From Roseovarius sp. M141 (lineage in GTDB: Bacteria > Pseudomonadota > Alphaproteobacteria > Rhodobacterales > Rhodobacteraceae), in assembly GCF_024355225.1 (NCBI RefSeq), contig NZ_VCNH01000008.1, forward strand, positions 1,364,001-1,428,000: a stretch of 64,000 nt of DNA, read 5' to 3'. A model generated the notes under the pieces. That model did no database searches, was not told the origin of the DNA, and saw nothing but the letters and a program-made list of their open reading frames with translations. Below are positions 12,408 through 21,034 of this stretch, in pieces (the stretch's first letter is position 1; each line of letters begins with the position of its first letter). Both the position numbers and the translations under genes were made by a program.

Positions 12408-12434
12408 GTAACATTGTCACTCCTGAAGAGACCC
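12408..12434 (+). promoter_or_regulatory. Candidate ECF-type promoter element before bufA
   Basis: GTAACA at 12408-12413 is followed after 17 bases by ACCC (12431-12434). The same GTAACA-N17-(A/T)CCC arrangement occurs before the anti-sigma gene (15674-15700). Assignment to the local ECF sigma factor is inference. Confidence 0.45.
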
Positions 12435-12486: not shown

Positions 12487-12792
12487 ATGACAGCTATGAA
12501 AACGACCCTCGGTCTTGGTGCTTCTCTGGCCTGCGCGCTGAGCGTGATGGCGGCTGCACCGGCACAAGCACAAGACATGGAAAAATGCTTTGGCGTCGCC
12601 CTTGCAGGCGAAAATGACTGTGCCGCAGGGCCCGGCACAACCTGCGCCGGTACGTCGAAAGTGGATTATCAAGGCAACGCCTGGAGCCTGGTTCCCGCTG
12701 GCACTTGCGCCGATATCGAGCTGCCCGCCATGGACGACGAAACCGCGCGCTCGGGCTCTCTCGAAGCGTTGGAGCGCGACGTCCCCGCATAG
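12487..12792 (+). CDS. bufA: Bufferin-type metallophore precursor, BufA1/DUF2282 family
   Basis: A 101-residue precursor. The first 28 residues form a Sec signal peptide (AAPAQA|Q). The mature part has four cysteines, C34 (EKCFG), C45 (ENDCAAG), C53 (TTCAG) and C74 (AGTCADIE), in the DUF2282/BufA1 pattern. In characterised bufferins an MNIO enzyme converts cysteines to thiooxazoles that bind copper and protect the cell; here the enzyme gene follows at once. The start at 12487 is chosen for the GGAGTGAG ribosome site and because it opens the signal peptide. Modification of C45 and C53 is predicted by analogy. Confidence 0.85.
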
Positions 12793-12866
12793 GCCGGACC
12801 TCGCCGGACCGGACGGGGCAGCACAGTCCCGTCCGGGTTTGGAATTGACCCCACAGGGAGGAAACG

Positions 12867-13718
12867 ATGACGAACCTACCGAATACAGTTGGCGTCGGGT
12901 TCAAGCCGGAGCATTTTGACGAAATTCACGCGCGCGCGGATCCTGTCGGTTTTTTCGAGGTTCACGCCGAAAATTACATGGGCGCCGGTGGCCAGCCCCA
13001 TGCACATCTGACCGCTTTGCGAAATGACTTTGCGCTTTCCATCCACGGGGTCGGTTTGTCGATCGGCGGGTCCGGTCCGATTGACCGCGATCATCTTGGG
13101 CGGCTGCGCACGCTATGCGATCGCTACGAACCCGAAAGCTTTTCCGAACATCTGGCATGGTCGAGCCACGGGGTGGATTATCTCAACGATCTGTTGCCAT
13201 TGCCTTATACGCCCGAAACGCTCGCGCTGGTCTGCGATCATATCGACGAGGTGCAGGAGGCGCTGGGGCGTCCGATGCTGCTTGAAAATCCGTCGACCTA
13301 CATCCTGTTTGAGCAATCGAGCATCGAAGAAACCGAATTCCTGCGCGAAATCACGCGGCGCACGGGCTGCGGGCTGCTGCTGGATATCAATAATGTCTTT
13401 GTCACGGCGACCAATCACCGCAATGATCCGCGCGCTTATCTTGCCGGTTTTCCAATGGGGGCCGTGGGTGAAATTCATCTTGGCGGGCACGATACCGAAG
13501 ACCTGCCCTCTGGTCCGCTGCTGATTGACGCACACAGAACCGCCGTGGCCGATCCGGTCTGGTCGCTCTACGCCGAGGTGATCGCGGCCTACGGGCCGCG
13601 CCCGACGCTGGTCGAATGGGATAATGACGTGCCCGCATGGCCCGTGCTACAGGCCGAAGCCGTGCGCGCGCAGGCATTGCTGGCCGCGAAAGGGGTGGAA
13701 TATGGCCGCGCATCATGA
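12867..13718 (+). CDS. bufB: Multinuclear non-heme iron oxidative enzyme (MNIO), DUF692
   Basis: This 283-residue TIM-barrel enzyme carries the DUF692 hallmarks: GVGFKPEH near the start, [58 protein letters not shown] and VEWDNDVP, which supply His, Asp, Glu and Asn ligands for an iron cluster. In bufferin systems the enzyme oxidises cysteine side chains of BufA. Its length is usual for the family. A GGGAGGAAACG ribosome site precedes the ATG, and the 3' end overlaps bufC by 17 bases. Confidence 0.9.
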
Positions 13719-14457
13719 CCTCACGCGTCATTTTGACATGGGCCTGAAGACAGGCGCTGTCCCCGAAGGCGCCACCGCACGTGACCCAGCGGAAACAGCG
13801 CGGCGTTTCGCCGTTTATCAAAACAACGTTGCCCACAGCCTGACCGAGGCGCTCGGCGCGCGCTTTCCGGTCATCCGGCGGCTCGTGGGGGATGAGTTCT
13901 TTGGCGCGATGGCGCGCGTCTATGCGGAATCTAGCCGGCCGCGCACGCCCGTCCTTATTGACTGGGGCGATGATTTCGCCGCTTTTCTGGCCGCCTTCGA
14001 ACCGCTGGCAGGCTACCCTTATATGCGCGATGTCGCGCGGATCGAATGGGTGCGGGGGCGCGCCTATCACGCGGCTGATTCCGCGCCGCTTGATCCTGTG
14101 GCTTTTGCGCAAGCGAACCCGTCCGATCTGGTTTTGCGCTTTCACCCATCGGTTCAGGTTCTGCGGCTCAAGACGCCCGCCGTATCGATCTGGCTCGCGA
14201 ACCAGCCCGGCTCCGAATCCGGTCGCGCCCTGCCGCAGGGCGGGGAAATCGGGCTGGTCCTGCGCGATCAGAAATTCAGGGTTCCGGTCCTCGCGATCTG
14301 CGAGGGTGATGCGATCTTTGTGGAGCATCTATCAACCGGCGCCACTCTGCAAGTCGCTGCCGAGCTTGCGAACTGGGCAGATACCGATCATGACCCGCAG
14401 CCCATTCTCATCCGCTTGATGCAGGCGGGCGCATTCATAAAACGGGAAGGAACCTGA
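13702..14457 (+). CDS. bufC: MNIO partner protein, DUF2063 family
   Basis: A 251-residue protein with the N-terminal DUF2063 domain ([33 protein letters not shown], here quoted only by its first and last parts: RFAVYQNN and LVGDEFF). Family members are called putative DNA-binding but act as recognition partners for DUF692 enzymes. The gene overlaps bufB by 17 bases with an AGGGGTGGA ribosome site inside bufB, and precedes the next gene by three bases, so translation of BufB and BufC is probably coupled. Confidence 0.8.
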
Positions 14458-14460
14458 TCC

Positions 14461-14940
14461 ATGAAAACGCTTATCCGACGTTTGAACGGCCTGCTCAGCC
14501 ACATTCCGGGCGATGTGGTCGCACTGGCCCTACGTGTCTTTCCGGCGATGGTCTTTTTCCAGTCCGGGCGCACCAAGGTCGACGGGCTGTTCTCGATCAA
14601 GGACTCGACCTATTTCCTGTTTCAGCATGAATATGCGTTGCCAGTTGTTCCGCATCAATTGGCCGCCGTGATGGGAACCGTGGCCGAGCATGCCCTGCCG
14701 GTGCTGCTGATCGTCGGCCTGTTGGCCCGTTTTTCGGCCCTTGGGCTGCTGGGCATGACATTGGTGATCCAGACATTCGTCTATCCCGGTGCGTGGATCA
14801 CCCACGGGCTCTGGGCGGCGGCGCTGTTGCCCACGGTGGCCTATGGTCCGGGGCGGCTGTCGCTGGATCATCTTTTGGGGCTCGATCCGCAATCCAGGCC
14901 CCGCGGCAGCCGGAGGAAAAGCCAGGCTGTCGCAAGGTAG
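14461..14940 (+). CDS. bufD: DoxX-family membrane protein
   Basis: The 159-residue product has four hydrophobic segments typical of DoxX proteins ([18 protein letters not shown] near the start, then [19 protein letters not shown] and [15 protein letters not shown], and a last helix near 115-130). The GRTK segment after helix 1 is a family feature. DoxX genes close many bufferin operons. Its role there is unclear; redox or membrane maturation has been suggested. It starts three bases after bufC. Confidence 0.8.
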
Positions 14941-15023
14941 GCTATACGCTGGAAACCAAATATTCCGGTGATCTGCGCGCTTTCAACTGGACACATGGAA
15001 TGTTTGTTCTGTTTACTTCGGCG

Positions 15024-15635
15024 ATGAGTGTGACGCGAGACATTGATCAGGAAACGCAGATTGTTGCGCTGTTGGCCACGGCTGATCCCGACGCCTTTGA
15101 GACAGTCTATCGAAGGTACAACGGATCAATGCTGCGTCTGTGTGGCAGCATCGTGAAAAACCACGCAACCGCCGAAGAGATCGCGCAAGATACCTGGGTT
15201 GCGGTACTGACGAACATTTCGAAATTCGAGGGCCGCTCGTCGCTGGCGGGCTGGATATATTCCATATTGGTAAACAAATCGCGGACACGGCTCAAACGCG
15301 ATGGCCGTAGCATTTCCTTTGACGAACACGGCGACGATGGCGGGCTACAGGCCGCGTTTGACGGGAAAGGGCGTTGGAAAAACCTGCCCGAGCTATGGGA
15401 CGAACTGACACCAGAGCGCATTGTCGCGGGCAGGGCCGTTGTGGCCCATATCGCAGACGCGATTGAAACACTGCCGACGGCGCAGCGCGCCGTGCTGATC
15501 CTGCGCAGCCAGAAAGATCTGGACCCGATCGAGGTATGCGAGATTCTGGATATCACCGAAGGGAACATGCGCGTCCTGCTGCATCGCGCGCGCCTTGCCA
15601 TGCGAAAGACACTAGATGATCTGCAAAGACCATAG
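15024..15635 (+). CDS. ECF-type RNA polymerase sigma factor
   Basis: A 203-residue group IV sigma factor. Region 2 is clear (AFETVYRRYNGSMLRLC, then AEEIAQDTWVAVLTNISKF and SLAGWIYSILVNKSR), and region 4 follows (IETLPTAQRAVLILR, EVCEILDITEGNMRVLLHRARLAMR). It is downstream of the bufferin genes on the same strand, so it likely controls them. No good ribosome site marks the start; ATG at 15000 would add eight residues. The linker between regions 2 and 4 is long (about 60 residues), with an unusual acidic stretch. Confidence 0.85.
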   Translation: MSVTRDIDQETQIVALLATADPDAFETVYRRYNGSMLRLCGSIVKNHATAEEIAQDTWVAVLTNISKFEGRSSLAGWIYSILVNKSRTRLKRDGRSISFDEHGDDGGLQAAFDGKGRWKNLPELWDELTPERIVAGRAVVAHIADAIETLPTAQRAVLILRSQKDLDPIEVCEILDITEGNMRVLLHRARLAMRKTLDDLQRP

Positions 15636-15673
15636 GAATTTCAGGAGTGCTGACGAGGTTTTGAATTTTACCT

Positions 15674-15700
15674 GTAACACTTTTCTGAATCGGCGGTCCC
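15674..15700 (+). promoter_or_regulatory. Candidate ECF-type promoter element before the anti-sigma gene
   Basis: GTAACA at 15674-15679 and TCCC at 15697-15700 are separated by 17 bases, matching the element before bufA. It lies 34 bases before the anti-sigma ATG and would give that gene its own sigma-dependent promoter. Confidence 0.4.
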
Positions 15701-15733
15701 ACTAATACGAGGGCCGAAACAAGGGTGACCCGG

Positions 15734-15985
15734 ATGCTAAGCTGTAAGGAAGTTGTGGAACGTGCAAGCGCGCTGATCGACGACGATCTGTCGATATGGG
15801 CAGCCCTTCAGATGCGATTTCATTTGGCGATGTGCAAAGGCTGCGGCGCGTTTATCGCGCAGATGCGCGCGACCGCACGCATCACAGAGGCTGCGGCCAA
15901 CACATTGCCTGACGAGTCAGCGGATGATGAGCGTATGCTGGACATCCTGTCCCGCGTTCACAAAAAAATGCACTCAGGCAGCTGA
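15734..15985 (+). CDS. Small zinc-finger anti-sigma factor
   Basis: Only 83 residues, with a zf-HC2 type anti-sigma signature: SCKEVVERASALIDDDLS, then H, C and C in FHLAMCKGCGAF. The four ligands (Cys, His, Cys, Cys) form the zinc site seen in RsrA/ChrR-type soluble anti-sigmas. No membrane segment is present, so it should act in the cytoplasm on the ECF factor encoded just upstream. The ATG at 15734 is preferred over GTG at 15725 because AGGG precedes it by about eight bases. Confidence 0.8.
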   Translation: MLSCKEVVERASALIDDDLSIWAALQMRFHLAMCKGCGAFIAQMRATARITEAAANTLPDESADDERMLDILSRVHKKMHSGS

Positions 15986-16071: not shown

Positions 16072-17100
16072 TCAGCGCGCGCCCCAGGTGTCCGGCAGAC
16101 GGTAGCCTTCGGGCCAGGGGTCGCCCGGGTCCAGCATGTGCTGGTGAATGCCGGTGATCCAGCCGCGCCCCGATAGTTCGGGGTGAATGGCGGGGCGCTC
16201 GCCCACTGTCGTCTCGCCCAGAATACGCCCGGTAAACTCGGACCCGATGATGGAAACGGTGGTCAGGCGGTCGTCCATCCCCATTTGTCCACGCGCATGC
16301 AGCACCGCCATCCGCGCGCACAGCGCCGTGCCGGTGGGCGAACGGTCGACCTTGCCCGGCTGGACCGCGACGGCAGCGCCCGCGCGCAGATCGCTTCCGT
16401 CGCGCGTTACCGGCCCGGCGAAAAGACAGAACGAGAAGTGAGTCCAATCCGGGTTTTCCGGGTGGCGGAATGTCAGCGCCTTGTTCGCGGCATTGGTGAT
16501 GCGCACGCCCATCCGTGCGATCTCATGCGCTTCGGATGTGTCCAGTTTCAGCCCCATCGCCGTGGCGTCGACGATCACGAAACTATCGCCGCCATAGGCG
16601 GTATCGACGGTCAGCGTGCCCAGCCCGTCGACCTCCAGCGGCACATCCAGATCGGCGGCAAAGCTGGGCAGGTTCTGCACGAAAATGCGCTGCGCCTTGC
16701 CGTCCTTGCACTCGGCCCGGACAGCGACCAGCCCACCGGGCGCCTCGAGCGTCAGGTGGGTTTCAGGCTCGGTCATGGGCAGGATGCCACCGTCCAGTAG
16801 AACGGTCGCCACGCAGATGGAATTGGACCCGCTCATGGGTGGGGTATCCTCCGGCTCCATGATGATGAAGGCGGCGTCGGCATCGGGGTTCTTGGGCGGG
16901 ACCAGCAGGTTGACGTGGCGGAAAACGCCGCCGCGCGGTTCGTTCAGGACGAAGTTGCGCAAGGTGTTATCGCGCGCGATCCAGCGGCTCTGCTCCCAGA
17001 TCGTGTCGCCGGGCGGAGGCGCAACGCCGCCAACGATGACATCGCCCACCTCGCCCTCGGCATGGGCCGAGATGACATGGATGGTTTTGCTGCTACGCAT
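16072..17100 (-). CDS. Proline racemase-family protein, probable trans-3-hydroxy-L-proline dehydratase
   Basis: A 342-residue proline racemase-fold protein. The two catalytic positions that are Cys in racemases and epimerases are S90 ([10 protein letters not shown]) and T256 (DRSPTGTAL). Without the Cys pair, two-base racemisation is unlikely; Ser/Thr forms are linked to dehydration of trans-3-hydroxyproline to pyrroline-2-carboxylate. The call is strengthened by an aconitase X gene 13 bases upstream and a pyrroline-2-carboxylate reductase gene at 28912. The ATG at 17100 starts [16 protein letters not shown], the usual family start. It is the last gene of the minus-strand operon. Confidence 0.7.
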
Positions 17101-17113
17101 GTGTTTATTCCTT

Positions 17114-18790
17114 TTAGACAAGCCAGATGGGTAAATTGGTGGGTGCTTTCCCTATAACAGCAGCTTCTGTGCAATCCTGCAGGCTGCCGAAACGGACCTT
17201 GCGGCCCGACAGGCCCGGCCCGTAATGGGCGTATTTGCCGGAATTGGTAAGAACGGTGCGCGCCTTGGGCGGAAAGACCGGCTCGGAAATCGAACACCAG
17301 CAGATGTCGGGAACGACCTGCACGCCAGAGGTTTCAAGCGCCGTTAATGTGCCATCCGCGCGGATCGCGTCCAGCACGTTCTGGCCCACGGTGACGATGA
17401 CGTGGGTGCCGTCGTGGCGGCGGCGTCCGTCTAGCGCGGCAGCCAGAGCGCGGCATTCAGTATGCGAGAAATGCGGACTGCCAAAGGCGATCAGATCGAC
17501 CTTGGCACTGCCTGCGTTGAAGCCCTGCCAGACCTCGGCCAGATCGGCGCGGCCTGCGCGGAATATGTCCGCGCCGGGCGCCAGCGCCCCGTCGGCCTCG
17601 GGCGTAATGCCCGCGACGTGCAGCATCGGCGCCGCAGAGGTGGTGCCGAACGCGGCGCAAAGCGCCTTGAGATCGTCCTCGGAAGGGGTGGTTCCTTCAA
17701 GCCCCCGCAACAGCGGGATGCGGTCGGGCGACAGGCGCCCGGCCAACCAGCCCAGCATGGGCCAGAGGGCATCGTCATGGGCGTCCGGCAGATCAATCTC
17801 GATCACCCGGCGCGCGGCGCGGGGGGCGTCGAGGTAGACACCGGACAGGGGCGCGCGGCCGGTCAAGGCGATGCACAGGTCCAGAAAATCCGGATGCTTG
17901 ACCGTGCGCGCGCCCAGCACGGTGTTGGCATAGACGACGGCGTTGGATTCGGCCCATGCAATTGCCTCGCCCTTCTTTGGCGGGTCCATCAACAGGTACG
18001 GCGCGCAGGTGAAGCTGGGGCGCGCGCCCATCTGGACATAGGCATCGGCCAGTTGCTGCGCCGGGTTGCCGAAGATTGGCGGCACGCCTTGACTGCGCCA
18101 GTTGACGTGATCGACGGAAATGGCGTTCATCGTGGTCGGAATGCGCACCTGCGCGCCCATATCGGCCATCTTTTGGGCGAAGCGCAGGTTGGCGGGGCTG
18201 GCATAGATGCAGCCGTCGATATGCGCGCGGGTGACGTCTATCAGGCTCGTGGCGCCTTGCGACGTGCCCATGGTGCAGATCGTCTGCATGGCCAGTTGCG
18301 CCACATCGCCCTCGCGCCCATCCAGCATGGCGCGGTCGGCCTCGCTCAGGTCCAACTGATCGGCGCTGAGCGGCTCCAGCGTCAGTGACAGGCCATCGGC
18401 CTCCAGGTGGGTGGCCGTGATACGCGCGTCGGGGAGGGCGGCCAGCACCTCATAGTCATCCGGCTCCAGTCGCAGCACGGCCAAGGGCCGGTCGAACATC
18501 CGCCCGGCCAGCAGCGCGCCAAGCGTCAGGATGTCCTCGGCCTCGCGGAATATCAGCGCGGCGGGTGCGTGGCCGTTCAGGGCCAACTCCAGCAGCACAC
18601 CGGACCCGGTGCAGGAGCCCCGGCTGGTCGGCATCATCACCAGTTTGCCGGCAAGGGACTGACCGCAGGCCGGGTGGTGTGCGTCGATCACCGTGCCGGT
18701 GGCCGGGTCGATCCCGCCCCAGAAGCTGAGGCCCTCGGGCAGGGCCAGAACCGGGCCCGCAGCCTCGGCGGGAACGATGAGATGCGCCAT
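17114..18790 (-). CDS. acnX: Aconitase X, probable cis-3-hydroxy-L-proline dehydratase
   Basis: A 558-residue single-chain (type I) aconitase X. The small swivel domain comes first ([20 protein letters not shown] near residues 45-65), then the large domain ([56 protein letters not shown]), with CWCSISEP near the C-terminus. Fused AcnX proteins have been shown to dehydrate cis-3-hydroxy-L-proline, whereas split ones act on mevalonate phosphate. Its place between hydroxyproline enzymes supports the first role. The ATG at 18790 follows the epimerase stop by 10 bases. Confidence 0.8.
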
Positions 18791-18800
18791 GTTGGCCCTT

Positions 18801-19802
18801 TCAGGTGACGACGAAACCGTGCGCCAATGGATCACGGTCGTCGATGAAGATGGTGTTGATCCCCGTCACCCGCGCCCAGCCGGCGATGGAGGGGATGATG
18901 GCGGCCTTGCCGCCCACCTCTGCCGCAGCTTCGACGCGGCCTTTGAAAAGCGTGCCGATGATGGATTCATGGATGAACTCGTCGCCCGGCGCCAGCCGTC
19001 CCTTGGCTGCCAGTTGCGCCATGCGCGCCGAAGTGCCGGTGCCGCAGGGCGAACGGTCGATCGCCTTGTCGCCATAGAACACCGCGTTGCGTGCATGGGC
19101 GGCCGGATTGCGCGGCGCGCCGGTCCACAGGATGTGGCTAAGGCCGTTGATAGCGGGAAATTCGGGGTGGATGAACTCGTACTTTGCATTGAGCGCCGCG
19201 CGCAGCTTCGGGCTGAGGTCCACCAGCCGCGCCGCGCTGAAATCCGCCATATCGCCGAAATTCGCCTGCGGCTCGACGATGGCATAGAAATTGCCGCCAT
19301 AGGCGACGTCGACGCTGATCTCGCCGATGCCCTCCAGATGCGCCGTCAACCCCTCGGAATGCAGGAACCCCGGCACGTTGGTCAGGCGGACCTCTTCGAC
19401 AAAGCGACCCTCCTGCACATAGGTCACATCGACCCGGCCGGCGGGCGTTTCCAGCCGCAACTGGCCGGGGGTTTCGGGCCGGATCAGGCCGTTTTCCAGC
19501 GCTATGGTGACGGTGCCGATGGTGCCATGCCCGCACATTGGCAGGCAGCCGGACGTTTCGATAAAGAGGACGGCAATGTCACAATCGTCGCGCGTCGGCG
19601 GATAGAGGATCGCGCCCGACATCTGGTCGTGGCCGCGCGGCTCGAACATCAGGCCGGTGCGGATCCAATCGTATTCGGACAGGAAATGCGCGCGCTTTTC
19701 CAGCATGTTCGCGCCCTTGAGCAGGGGCGCGCCCCCGGTGACGAGACGGACGGGATTGCCGCAGGTGTGACCGTCGATGCAGGGGAAGGTGTATTGGGTC
19801 AT
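18801..19802 (-). CDS. 4-hydroxyproline 2-epimerase
   Basis: A 333-residue proline racemase-family enzyme with both catalytic cysteines, C90 ([10 protein letters not shown]) and C253 ([13 protein letters not shown]), so it should be a true epimerase. It would interconvert trans-4-hydroxy-L-proline and cis-4-hydroxy-D-proline, the entry step of the LhpA route. The start ([19 protein letters not shown]) is the family N-terminus and overlaps the upstream oxidase stop by four bases. The contrast with the Ser/Thr paralogue two genes downstream helps assign both. Confidence 0.88.
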
Positions 19803-21034
19803 GTCGCTCTCGTGAAACGCGCCGGGGAAAACGGCGCAAGGTTGATCTGTGGCGTCTGCCCGGTCAGAAGGTCGGCGACGATCCGCGCGGTGCCGGTTGA
19901 TTGCGTCAGGCCCAGATGGCCATGACCAAAGGCGCAGATCGCGCCTGTATCGCCGGGCAGGGGCCCGATGGCAGGCAGGCTGTCGGGCAGGGAGGGGCGC
20001 AGCCCCATCCATTGCACGCCGCCTGTGGTTTTCAGCCCCGGAAGGAAATCGGCGGCCTTTTTCAGCATCGCGTCGGCGCGGGCGTAGTTCGGCGGCAGAT
20101 CCAGTCCGCCCAGTTCGACAGCGCCGCCAACGCGCAGGCCCGAACCAAGGCTGACCACGACAAAGCCGTGCCCGCCGAACGTCACCTGACAGCGCAGATC
20201 GAACGCGCCGGGGGGCAGGGTGGTGTTATAGCCGCGCTCGGCCTCCAGCGGGATGCGCACGTTTGCGGTGCGCGCCAGATGGTGCGAATGGGCACCGGCA
20301 GCCAGTACGACGCGGCCCTGCATCGGGCCTATGCTGGTCTGAACGCCGCCTTGGGTCAGCGCGGTCGCCTCGGCGATGACGATCTCGCCGCCATTTTCCC
20401 GCACGCGGTCTGCCAGCGCCAGCGTATAATCCTTGGGATCGTTGATCGTGAACCAGCCGGGGGTAAAGGTCGCGTGGGTAAAGCGCGGCGCGAGGCCGGG
20501 CTGATAGGCGGCGATCCCGTCGCCTTTGAGGTGGGTGAATTCGATGCCCGCAGCCGCGCGCGTCTCCCATCCCGGCAGCGATGCGTTGAATTCGCGCACG
20601 CCCTCGTAGACCTGCAAATTCCCTTCACGCCGCAGCATGTGGGCCAGTCCGGCGCGCTCCAGAAACGGATCGAGCGTCGCCTTGGAGAGATTCATCATCG
20701 CCGTCTGCGCAAGGGTCGATGCACGAACCTGCGCAGGCCAACTGGCGCGCCAGAAGCGCAGCATCCATGGTGCGATCTTCAGCGCATAGGCAGGCGGCAC
20801 GCTGAGCGGGCCGAGCGGGTCCAGCAGCCATCTGGGCGCCTGCCGGATGATCCGGGGCGACGCCAGCGGCAGGATATCGGTGAAGGCGAACGCGCCCGCG
20901 TTGCCCGCCGACGCACCCGCCACCGGACCGACCCTGTCGATCACGCGCACCCTCAGCCCTTGCGCCTGCGCCTCCAGCGCGGCGGACAGGCCGACGACAC
21001 CGGCCCCCACGATGATCACATCGGGGGCGTCCAT
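19799..21034 (-). CDS. FAD-dependent D-amino acid (cis-4-hydroxy-D-proline) oxidase/dehydrogenase
   Basis: A 411-residue DadA-like flavoprotein with an N-terminal dinucleotide fold (IIVGAGVVGLSAALEAQ) and the DAO-family C-terminal half (GVQWMGLRPSLPDSLPAIGP, FGHGHLGLTQSTGTARIVADLL). It should oxidise cis-4-hydroxy-D-proline to 1-pyrroline-4-hydroxy-2-carboxylate. It lies between the epimerase (4-bp overlap) and the ABC ATPase (1-base overlap), so oxidation and uptake genes form one transcript. Specificity is inferred from context. Confidence 0.8.
   Translation of the reverse strand: MDAPDVIIVGAGVVGLSAALEAQAQGLRVRVIDRVGPVAGASAGNAGAFAFTDILPLASPRIIRQAPRWLLDPLGPLSVPPAYALKIAPWMLRFWRASWPAQVRASTLAQTAMMNLSKATLDPFLERAGLAHMLRREGNLQVYEGVREFNASLPGWETRAAAGIEFTHLKGDGIAAYQPGLAPRFTHATFTPGWFTINDPKDYTLALADRVRENGGEIVIAEATALTQGGVQTSIGPMQGRVVLAAGAHSHHLARTANVRIPLEAERGYNTTLPPGAFDLRCQVTFGGHGFVVVSLGSGLRVGGAVELGGLDLPPNYARADAMLKKAADFLPGLKTTGGVQWMGLRPSLPDSLPAIGPLPGDTGAICAFGHGHLGLTQSTGTARIVADLLTGQTPQINLAPFSPARFTRAT

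Follow-up and report, generated by a model that had tools for sequence, protein, structure and literature searches.

The 64,000-nucleotide stretch of the Roseovarius sp. M141 genome analysed here (contig NZ_VCNH01000008.1, positions 1,364,001 to 1,428,000; hereafter the window) carries on its forward strand, between positions 12,487 and 15,985, what family matches identify as a complete-looking Buf1 bufferin cluster (bufABC-doxX), followed by genes for an extracytoplasmic function (ECF) sigma factor and a small soluble zinc-binding anti-sigma factor (ZAS). The slot behind doxX thus holds a pair other than the ECF and NrsF pair found at this place in two related Paracoccus clusters. The cluster is otherwise of a known kind, and what is new here is a Buf1 regulator slot with a very different ECF sigma factor and a soluble ZAS anti-sigma factor, and no NrsF. 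Taken as a whole, a model in which the Buf1 operon is regulated by the linked ECF sigma factor and its 83-residue cytoplasmic ZAS partner is the one that we regard as probable.

All six genes lie on the forward strand in the order given by the first-pass annotation, which was made from the letters alone, and its identification of a bufferin cluster is borne out by curated Pfam and NCBIfam models, BufB passing the NCBIfam cut-off. The precursor gene bufA (12487..12792, 101 aa) matches PF10048 (DUF2282) with 88.6 bits (cut-off 22.4) and is the single DUF2282 match in the 4.5 Mb genome. Its neighbour bufB (12867..13718) encodes a multinuclear non-haem iron-dependent oxidative enzyme (MNIO) scoring 376.8 bits with NF050167 (MNIO_BufB, cut-off 310) and 345.2 bits with the Pfam family MbnB_TglH_ChrH; its product would be expected to make Cys-derived thiooxazoles. 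The DUF2063/HvfC-like partner gene bufC (13702..14457) matches PF09836 (81.4 bits) and stays under the cut-off of the narrower HvfC model NF050145 (57.4 bits, cut-off 142), and the membrane protein encoded by doxX (14461..14940) matches PF07681 (56.4 bits) and stays under that of the HvfX family NF050144 (47.9 bits, cut-off 80). A DUF2282 precursor, a BufB-type MNIO, a DUF2063 partner and DoxX are thus found in one cluster, as in Buf1 systems. The ECF sigma factor (15024..15635, 203 aa, with a possible alternative in-frame ATG upstream at 15000) matches Sigma70_r2 (47.4 bits), Sigma70_r4_2 (43.2 bits) and TIGR02937 (78.4 bits, cut-off 42.9), and the anti-sigma factor (15734..15985, 83 aa, with an alternative GTG start at 15725) matches zf-HC2 (35.1 bits) and scores 49.9 bits with NF052368 antisigmaE, whose cut-off is 50.

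The comparison that sets the regulatory pair apart draws on plasmids: of 67 records in which a BufB relative was found, the best ten are mostly from Paracoccus and Gemmobacter, and three were inspected. In two of these, both from Paracoccus, an ECF gene and a DUF1109 gene stand behind bufABC-DoxX, in one case with an intervening thioredoxin gene; in the Gemmobacter plasmid cluster the ECF gene is on the other side, with no DUF1109 in the stretch shown. The plasmid Buf1 clusters of P. liaowanqingii and P. aestuarii resemble that of the window in gene order, with an ECF sigma factor and an anti-sigma factor behind doxX, and in the sequences of bufA (66-70% identical) and bufB (73-74%). In contrast, their ECF sigma factors are only 21-23% identical to the window sigma over 142-149 aligned columns, and their partner is annotated as DUF1109, as opposed to the soluble ZAS of the window. 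The one DUF1109 protein tested, from P. liaowanqingii, is an NrsF by Pfam (151.6 bits). NrsF (PF06532) was detected in none of nine genomes, the window's own included, the control Caulobacter genome being positive. Since BufB is conserved at 73-74% and yet the sigma factors share so little and no NrsF match was obtained, the regulator slot of the window holds a different pair. One of the two pairs, ECF/ZAS or ECF/NrsF, may have replaced the other, in either direction.

Small ZAS anti-sigma factors of this type, such as NMB2145, HrsE and RsrA, are already known. The window protein carries the zinc motif C4-X25-H30-X3-C34-X2-C37, whose four ligand residues are the same in all 16 sequences compared, and fits the ZAS motif (C/H)-X23-26-H-X3-C-X2-C as quoted in PMC7907618. 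When profiles were compared with solved structures, the anti-sigma factor gave a weak match to RsiW (E 0.0084), and the sigma factor matched sigma-H, SigW and RpoE. The two gene products would presumably bind each other, and a small soluble Cys/His protein of this kind is a plausible sensor of metals or oxidation, as had been proposed; by analogy, the anti-sigma factor may release its sigma factor once its zinc thiols are oxidised or taken by a thiol-loving metal. Genes for such pairs were compared at 29 places with flanking sequence, made up of the window, 14 further places, G011, G064, G095 and G082, and ten loci in which identity reaches 52% or more; these ten came from 80 loci kept among at least 187 relatives, the other 70 falling outside the 29, and L106, being the contig of L073, was not added a second time. 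The anti-sigma gene directly follows the sigma gene in the window and in 27 of the 29 loci overall, the exceptions being L094, with a divergent anti-sigma gene, and L072, where it lies about 6 kb from the sigma gene.

The sigma and anti-sigma genes are separated by a promoter-like element, GTAAC-N17-GTC (15674..15698, forward strand), which is found 56-75 nt upstream of the anti-sigma start in 28 of the 29 loci, L072 having an 18-nt spacer. Only 0.015 such occurrences would be expected from Markov-resampled sequences, although the 29 loci are homologous and thus no independent trials. The gap around the element is poorly conserved, with a mean column identity of 43%, and among the first 15 loci its invariant columns are GTAAC and GTC only. 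Three plasmid loci outside the 29 (L184, L187 and L188) have the element near the anti-sigma gene as well, and it occurs 54 times in 404 kb of loci, as compared with 15 times for the reversed pattern. In contrast, none of the 29 loci has it within 250 nt upstream of the sigma gene, and in the window read-through from bufA could still produce the sigma factor. The pattern fits an ECF promoter, and such a role may be assigned to it on these grounds. Counting against control of bufA by this sigma, YGTAACN17GWCY is not enriched genome-wide, with 18 matches versus 132 to the reversed control; many of the 18 lie inside long open reading frames (ORFs), and no defensible target beyond bufA and the anti-sigma gene emerged from them.

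Upstream of bufA, 79 nt before the start codon, the window has a related element, GTAAC-N17-GAC (12408..12432, forward strand), with an exact -35 half and a -10 half that is one base off. The same form is present in L072, the GTAAC half recurs in all eight bufA upstreams compared, and the exact GTAAC-N17-GTC precedes both bufA and bufB in L098 (Solirhodobacter olei) and bufA in L100 (a Pseudorhodobacter bin). With a matrix built from 27 loci other than the window, the window bufA upstream scored 9.9, which ranks third among the 40 upstreams and exceeds all 100 of its mononucleotide shuffles, with the caveats that six of the 40 rows are the same site fetched twice and that a shuffle outscores the real upstream in many rows. 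On balance, it seems somewhat more probable that the window sigma controls bufA than that it does not. Several observations weigh against such control. By the same matrix, the bufA upstreams of L072 and L070 score only -0.2 and -6.2 (bufA of L070, on the same strand behind the anti-sigma gene, could use the anti-sigma promoter), while those of the sigma-less genus members L018 and L019 reach 6.8 and 4.9. The bufA promoters of G011, G064 and L070 keep nothing of the element but GTAAC. Furthermore, the window has GAC as its -10 half, and the loci show no enrichment of GTAAC-N17-GAC (3 occurrences versus 16 for the reversed control); the GACCC stretch to which it belongs lines up with GGACCC in what looks like a leader element of relatives, and in P. 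aestuarii the aligned stretch comes after a proper CGAA -10. The -10 of the window bufA is uncertain because its GACC part also aligns with this leader: on one reading, a shorter spacer put GACC into register after the loss of an NrsF-type -10, and on another, GACC is no -10.

The same upstream region bears on the possibility that bufA retains a promoter of the SigF/NrsF type (GTAAC-N16/17-CGAA), read by a putative remaining ECF16-like sigma factor, with the ZAS pair irrelevant to bufA. The bufA gene of P. aestuarii does have GTAAC-N17-CGAA, the published SigF form is GTAACC-N16-CGAA (PMC3511200), and the window retains the GTAAC half; it nonetheless has no CGAA at SigF-type spacing, and its genome gave no NrsF match, which, as judged from the bufA upstream sequence and the NrsF search, makes this explanation very improbable. 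Nine loci of the genus with the other BufB type and without a window-type sigma (L010, L015, L016, L017, L025, L029, L031, L032 and L034) have upstream of bufA, about 110-170 nt before its start, a box like CGTGTCTRAC-N5-CGTGA, to which some other regulator may bind.

How closely the sigma pair is tied to bufferin genes can be assessed from its distribution. The window-type sigma is rare, being present in 14 of 394 genomes of the family and 5 of 84 of the genus, own genome counted in both. BufB is present in 45 of the 84 genus genomes, and its window type (at least 71% identity) in three, all of which have the sigma, as do 2 of the 81 others (hypergeometric probability about 1e-4, computed by hand and with kinship among genomes still included). 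Bufferin genes were found in the fetched stretch at seven of the 29 places: the window, L070, L072, L098, L100, G011 and G064. Their arrangements differ. The order is sigma-anti-sigma-bufABCX in L070 and bufA-DoxX-sigma-anti-sigma-bufBC in L098; the sigma pair and the bufferin genes are about 3 kb apart in L100 and about 15 kb apart in G011 and G064; and L072, whose BufB is 75% identical to that of the window, has the anti-sigma gene divergent from the bufferin genes, an arrangement that is neither of the window type nor of the Paracoccus type.

This distribution leaves room for the view that the ECF/ZAS pair is a mere neighbour, a module for general stress that came to lie behind doxX and acts on its anti-sigma gene and on genes elsewhere, while the bufferin operon answers to a metal regulator or to a different sigma factor. 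At the remaining 22 of the 29 sigma places, some of them on short contigs, the stretch fetched contains no bufferin genes, which also counts against control of the cluster by the pair. Moreover, a DUF6789-like gene directly follows the anti-sigma gene in 15 of 30 loci (judged by eye, one member Pfam-checked), and several copies of the element lie about 55-70 nt upstream of genes whose products are a solute-binding protein, a C92 peptidase or a P460 cytochrome (one protein each Pfam-tested). The repeated association of the pair with bufferin genes in differing arrangements (in the window, L070, L072, L098 and L100), the exact element before bufA in L098 and L100, and the joint presence of the sigma and window-type BufB within the genus argue against a chance neighbourhood, which we consider rather unlikely. 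The first-pass claim that the cluster has its own ECF/anti-sigma regulator is likely to hold, the many sigma places without nearby bufferin genes counting against it.

Bins of Deltaproteobacteria and Myxococcaceae hold more distant sigma-ZAS pairs near BufB genes (L104, L115 and L160) or near a BufC match only (L168); GTAAC-N17-GTC is absent upstream of the anti-sigma gene in these four. In five loci from Acetobacteraceae/Rhodospirillales (L101, L102, L103, L107 and L109; sigma identity 42-44%), the two genes of the pair are divergent, and GTAAC-N17/18-GTC still precedes the anti-sigma gene. G011 and G064 (L037 and L180) share a similar stretch of DUF3179-like and solute-binding-protein genes (Pfam was run on the G064 copies only), with the sigma pair at one end and the bufferin operon at the other; a patatin gene was seen in that of G064.

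At the level of the precursor, BufA has by eye a Sec-type signal peptide and five Cys, with C16 in the signal peptide and C34, C45, C53 and C74 in the predicted mature part, which agrees with the four-Cys precursor initially described. In BufBC-type systems the target residues are the two central Cys (PMC12452194), and thiooxazole formation costs 4 H per modified Cys (PMC13097082). A modified pair would therefore lose 8 H, plus 2 for a disulphide, and the loss of four hydrogens per Cys pair put forward in the first-pass annotation is half of the expected value. Thiooxazoles on the central Cys and copper binding may be supposed for the window peptide. As for the junctions, described at first as tight or overlapping, only bufB/bufC (17-nt overlap) and bufC-doxX (3-nt gap) are so; the other three of the five are gaps of 74 nt (bufA-bufB), 83 nt (doxX-sigma) and 98 nt (sigma-anti-sigma), the last of which contains its own promoter-like element. 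The bufA-bufB gap contains a stem-loop with a nine-pair stem (12811..12834, forward strand, by folding), and GC-rich stems at an equal position, of differing sequence and still pairing, occur in four of four loci folded (window, L037, L038 and L072; folding z-scores -1.3 to -4.3), which possibly fits a greater output of precursor than of enzyme.

Building on the observed gene content and order, the ZAS residues, the conserved anti-sigma element and the lack of an NrsF match, the following sequence of events can be proposed. The zinc-binding anti-sigma factor would keep the ECF sigma factor inactive in the cytoplasm until its Cys/His zinc site is upset by a thiol-reactive stress, most likely an oxidant or a metal that binds thiols, for example Cu(I), and the sigma factor is freed; such stress is the inducing signal that we infer. 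Sigma-bound RNA polymerase would then start at GTAAC-N17-G(T/A)C sites before the anti-sigma gene and bufA, the enzyme BufB with its partner BufC would turn the two central Cys into thiooxazoles, and the exported BufA peptide would bind copper in the periplasm. The response would be self-limiting, the active sigma factor making more of its own inhibitor, because the anti-sigma gene alone of the pair has the element.

A further reading, which builds on the proposal of the first-pass annotation, is that the zinc anti-sigma factor senses copper directly and that mature bufferin feeds back by lowering cytoplasmic copper. The ZAS thiols could bind Cu(I), but the product-feedback loop has no direct support: export is predicted for the peptide and a cytoplasmic location for the anti-sigma factor. 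Furthermore, the agents used in work on HrsE were HOCl and H2O2 (PMC7907618), and the sigma-E expression of N. meningitidis was unaltered by oxidants (PMC2893595). Direct copper sensing with feedback is therefore, in our opinion, improbable.

A more tentative extension of the thiol-stress model regards the ECF/ZAS pair as a transferable thiol-stress switch with built-in self-limitation, which would have replaced a membrane-bound NrsF pair in the same Buf1 slot and moved the trigger from the envelope to the cytoplasm. A GTAAC -35 common to the two sigma types would have made the exchange easier, leaving only the -10 half to change. We consider this scenario conceivable, with the odds somewhat against it.

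The nearest whole-cluster parallel is the rpoE operon of Neisseria (NMB2140-NMB2145 / NGO1948-NGO1943; PMC2893595, PMC2954202), which likewise comprises genes for DoxX, a periplasmic protein, DUF692, DUF2063, an ECF sigma factor and a small ZAS anti-sigma factor, with the ligands C4, H30, C34 and C37 at positions identical to those of the window. This operon is sigma-dependent, anti-sigma-repressed, cotranscribed and autoregulated (PMC2893595, PMC2954202). In contrast to the DUF2282 protein of the window, its precursor is of the EGKCG type (gonophorin; PMC12668002). Where the Neisseria operon is autoregulated, the window has an anti-sigma gene with its own element and a sigma gene without one within 250 nt, and the Neisseria promoter (GTMAGBWTT, 12-13 nt, CGTCTAAH) is unlike the window element. 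Among DUF2282 systems, sigma factors and NrsF anti-sigma factors were reported in Buf1 clusters by a survey of MNIO clusters (PMC12452194), and SigF-NrsF of Caulobacter crescentus (PMC3511200) controls two DUF2282-DUF692-DUF2063(-DoxX) operons, CC3254-57, which is linked, and CC2907-05. The Caulobacter system shares with the window such an operon with an ECF sigma factor and a GTAAC -35, which is also the -35 reported for RpoE7; unlike the window, it has an NrsF with six membrane helices and two key Cys, a CGAA -10, and Cr and Cd as signals (PMC3511200). RpoE7 of S. meliloti controls a DUF692-DUF2063 operon (PMC6180224). No published DUF2282 cluster with a ZAS anti-sigma factor was found in the literature searched, which was largely without subscription papers and gives no proof of absence.

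The corresponding cluster of Haemophilus influenzae has a precursor of the EGKCG/oxazolin type, unlike the DUF2282 precursor of the window. Its RpoE2-HrsE pair, with a 67-residue cytoplasmic ZAS anti-sigma factor, resembles that of the window, and RpoE2 controls the doxX/COG3767/COG3220/DUF2063 cluster upon HOCl exposure, the cluster being described, in contrast to the window, as a locus separate from rpoE2 (PMC7907618). In the gigPABT-rpoQ-rsqA region of Cupriavidus metallidurans (PMC10304878), a small periplasmic protein, DUF2063 and DoxX-like proteins are again encoded beside an ECF pair, and the gigPABT operon is induced by copper and gold. This region differs from the window in its divergent arrangement and predicted membrane-bound anti-sigma factor, and dependence on RpoQ was not demonstrated in that work.

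Further sites and neighbouring genes can be briefly mentioned. Element sites before the solute-binding protein, C92 peptidase and P460 cytochrome genes in L037, L180, L063, L181, L065, L061, L062, L068 and L108 form a candidate regulon of this ECF family. In the own genome (C8:1062567; about position 1500 of L082), TGTAAC-N17-GTCC followed by GCGTGAAAC is very like the anti-sigma promoter and has no clear gene behind it; a gene may have been missed there, or a small RNA may be encoded. Another site, next to a globin-like ORF in L083, was judged to be due to chance, as it overlaps an ORF on the opposite strand, which we take to resemble an NsrR-type regulator. A leader hairpin that would hide the anti-sigma Shine-Dalgarno sequence in read-through transcripts by means of a complementary -10 (GTCCT, with complementarity in several loci) was also considered. 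Among 24 loci folded, the mean unpaired probability was 0.40 for read-through, 0.61 from the presumed start and 0.48 with the -10 shuffled; the hairpin was strong in about five loci only and absent in the window, and the idea was dropped. Downstream of the cluster, on the reverse strand (16072-20012), two racemase/epimerase-like genes flank an aconitase-like gene beside an amino-acid ABC (ATP-binding cassette) transporter, a group that perhaps serves hydroxyproline use.

These data suggest that one operon for a copper-binding ribosomally synthesised and post-translationally modified peptide can sit under very different stress switches, and they provide, for a family of ECF/ZAS pairs in Rhodobacterales, a candidate regulon and a concrete promoter element open to testing. 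They also separate the function of the bufferin, copper binding, from its trigger, which may be thiol stress rather than copper itself.

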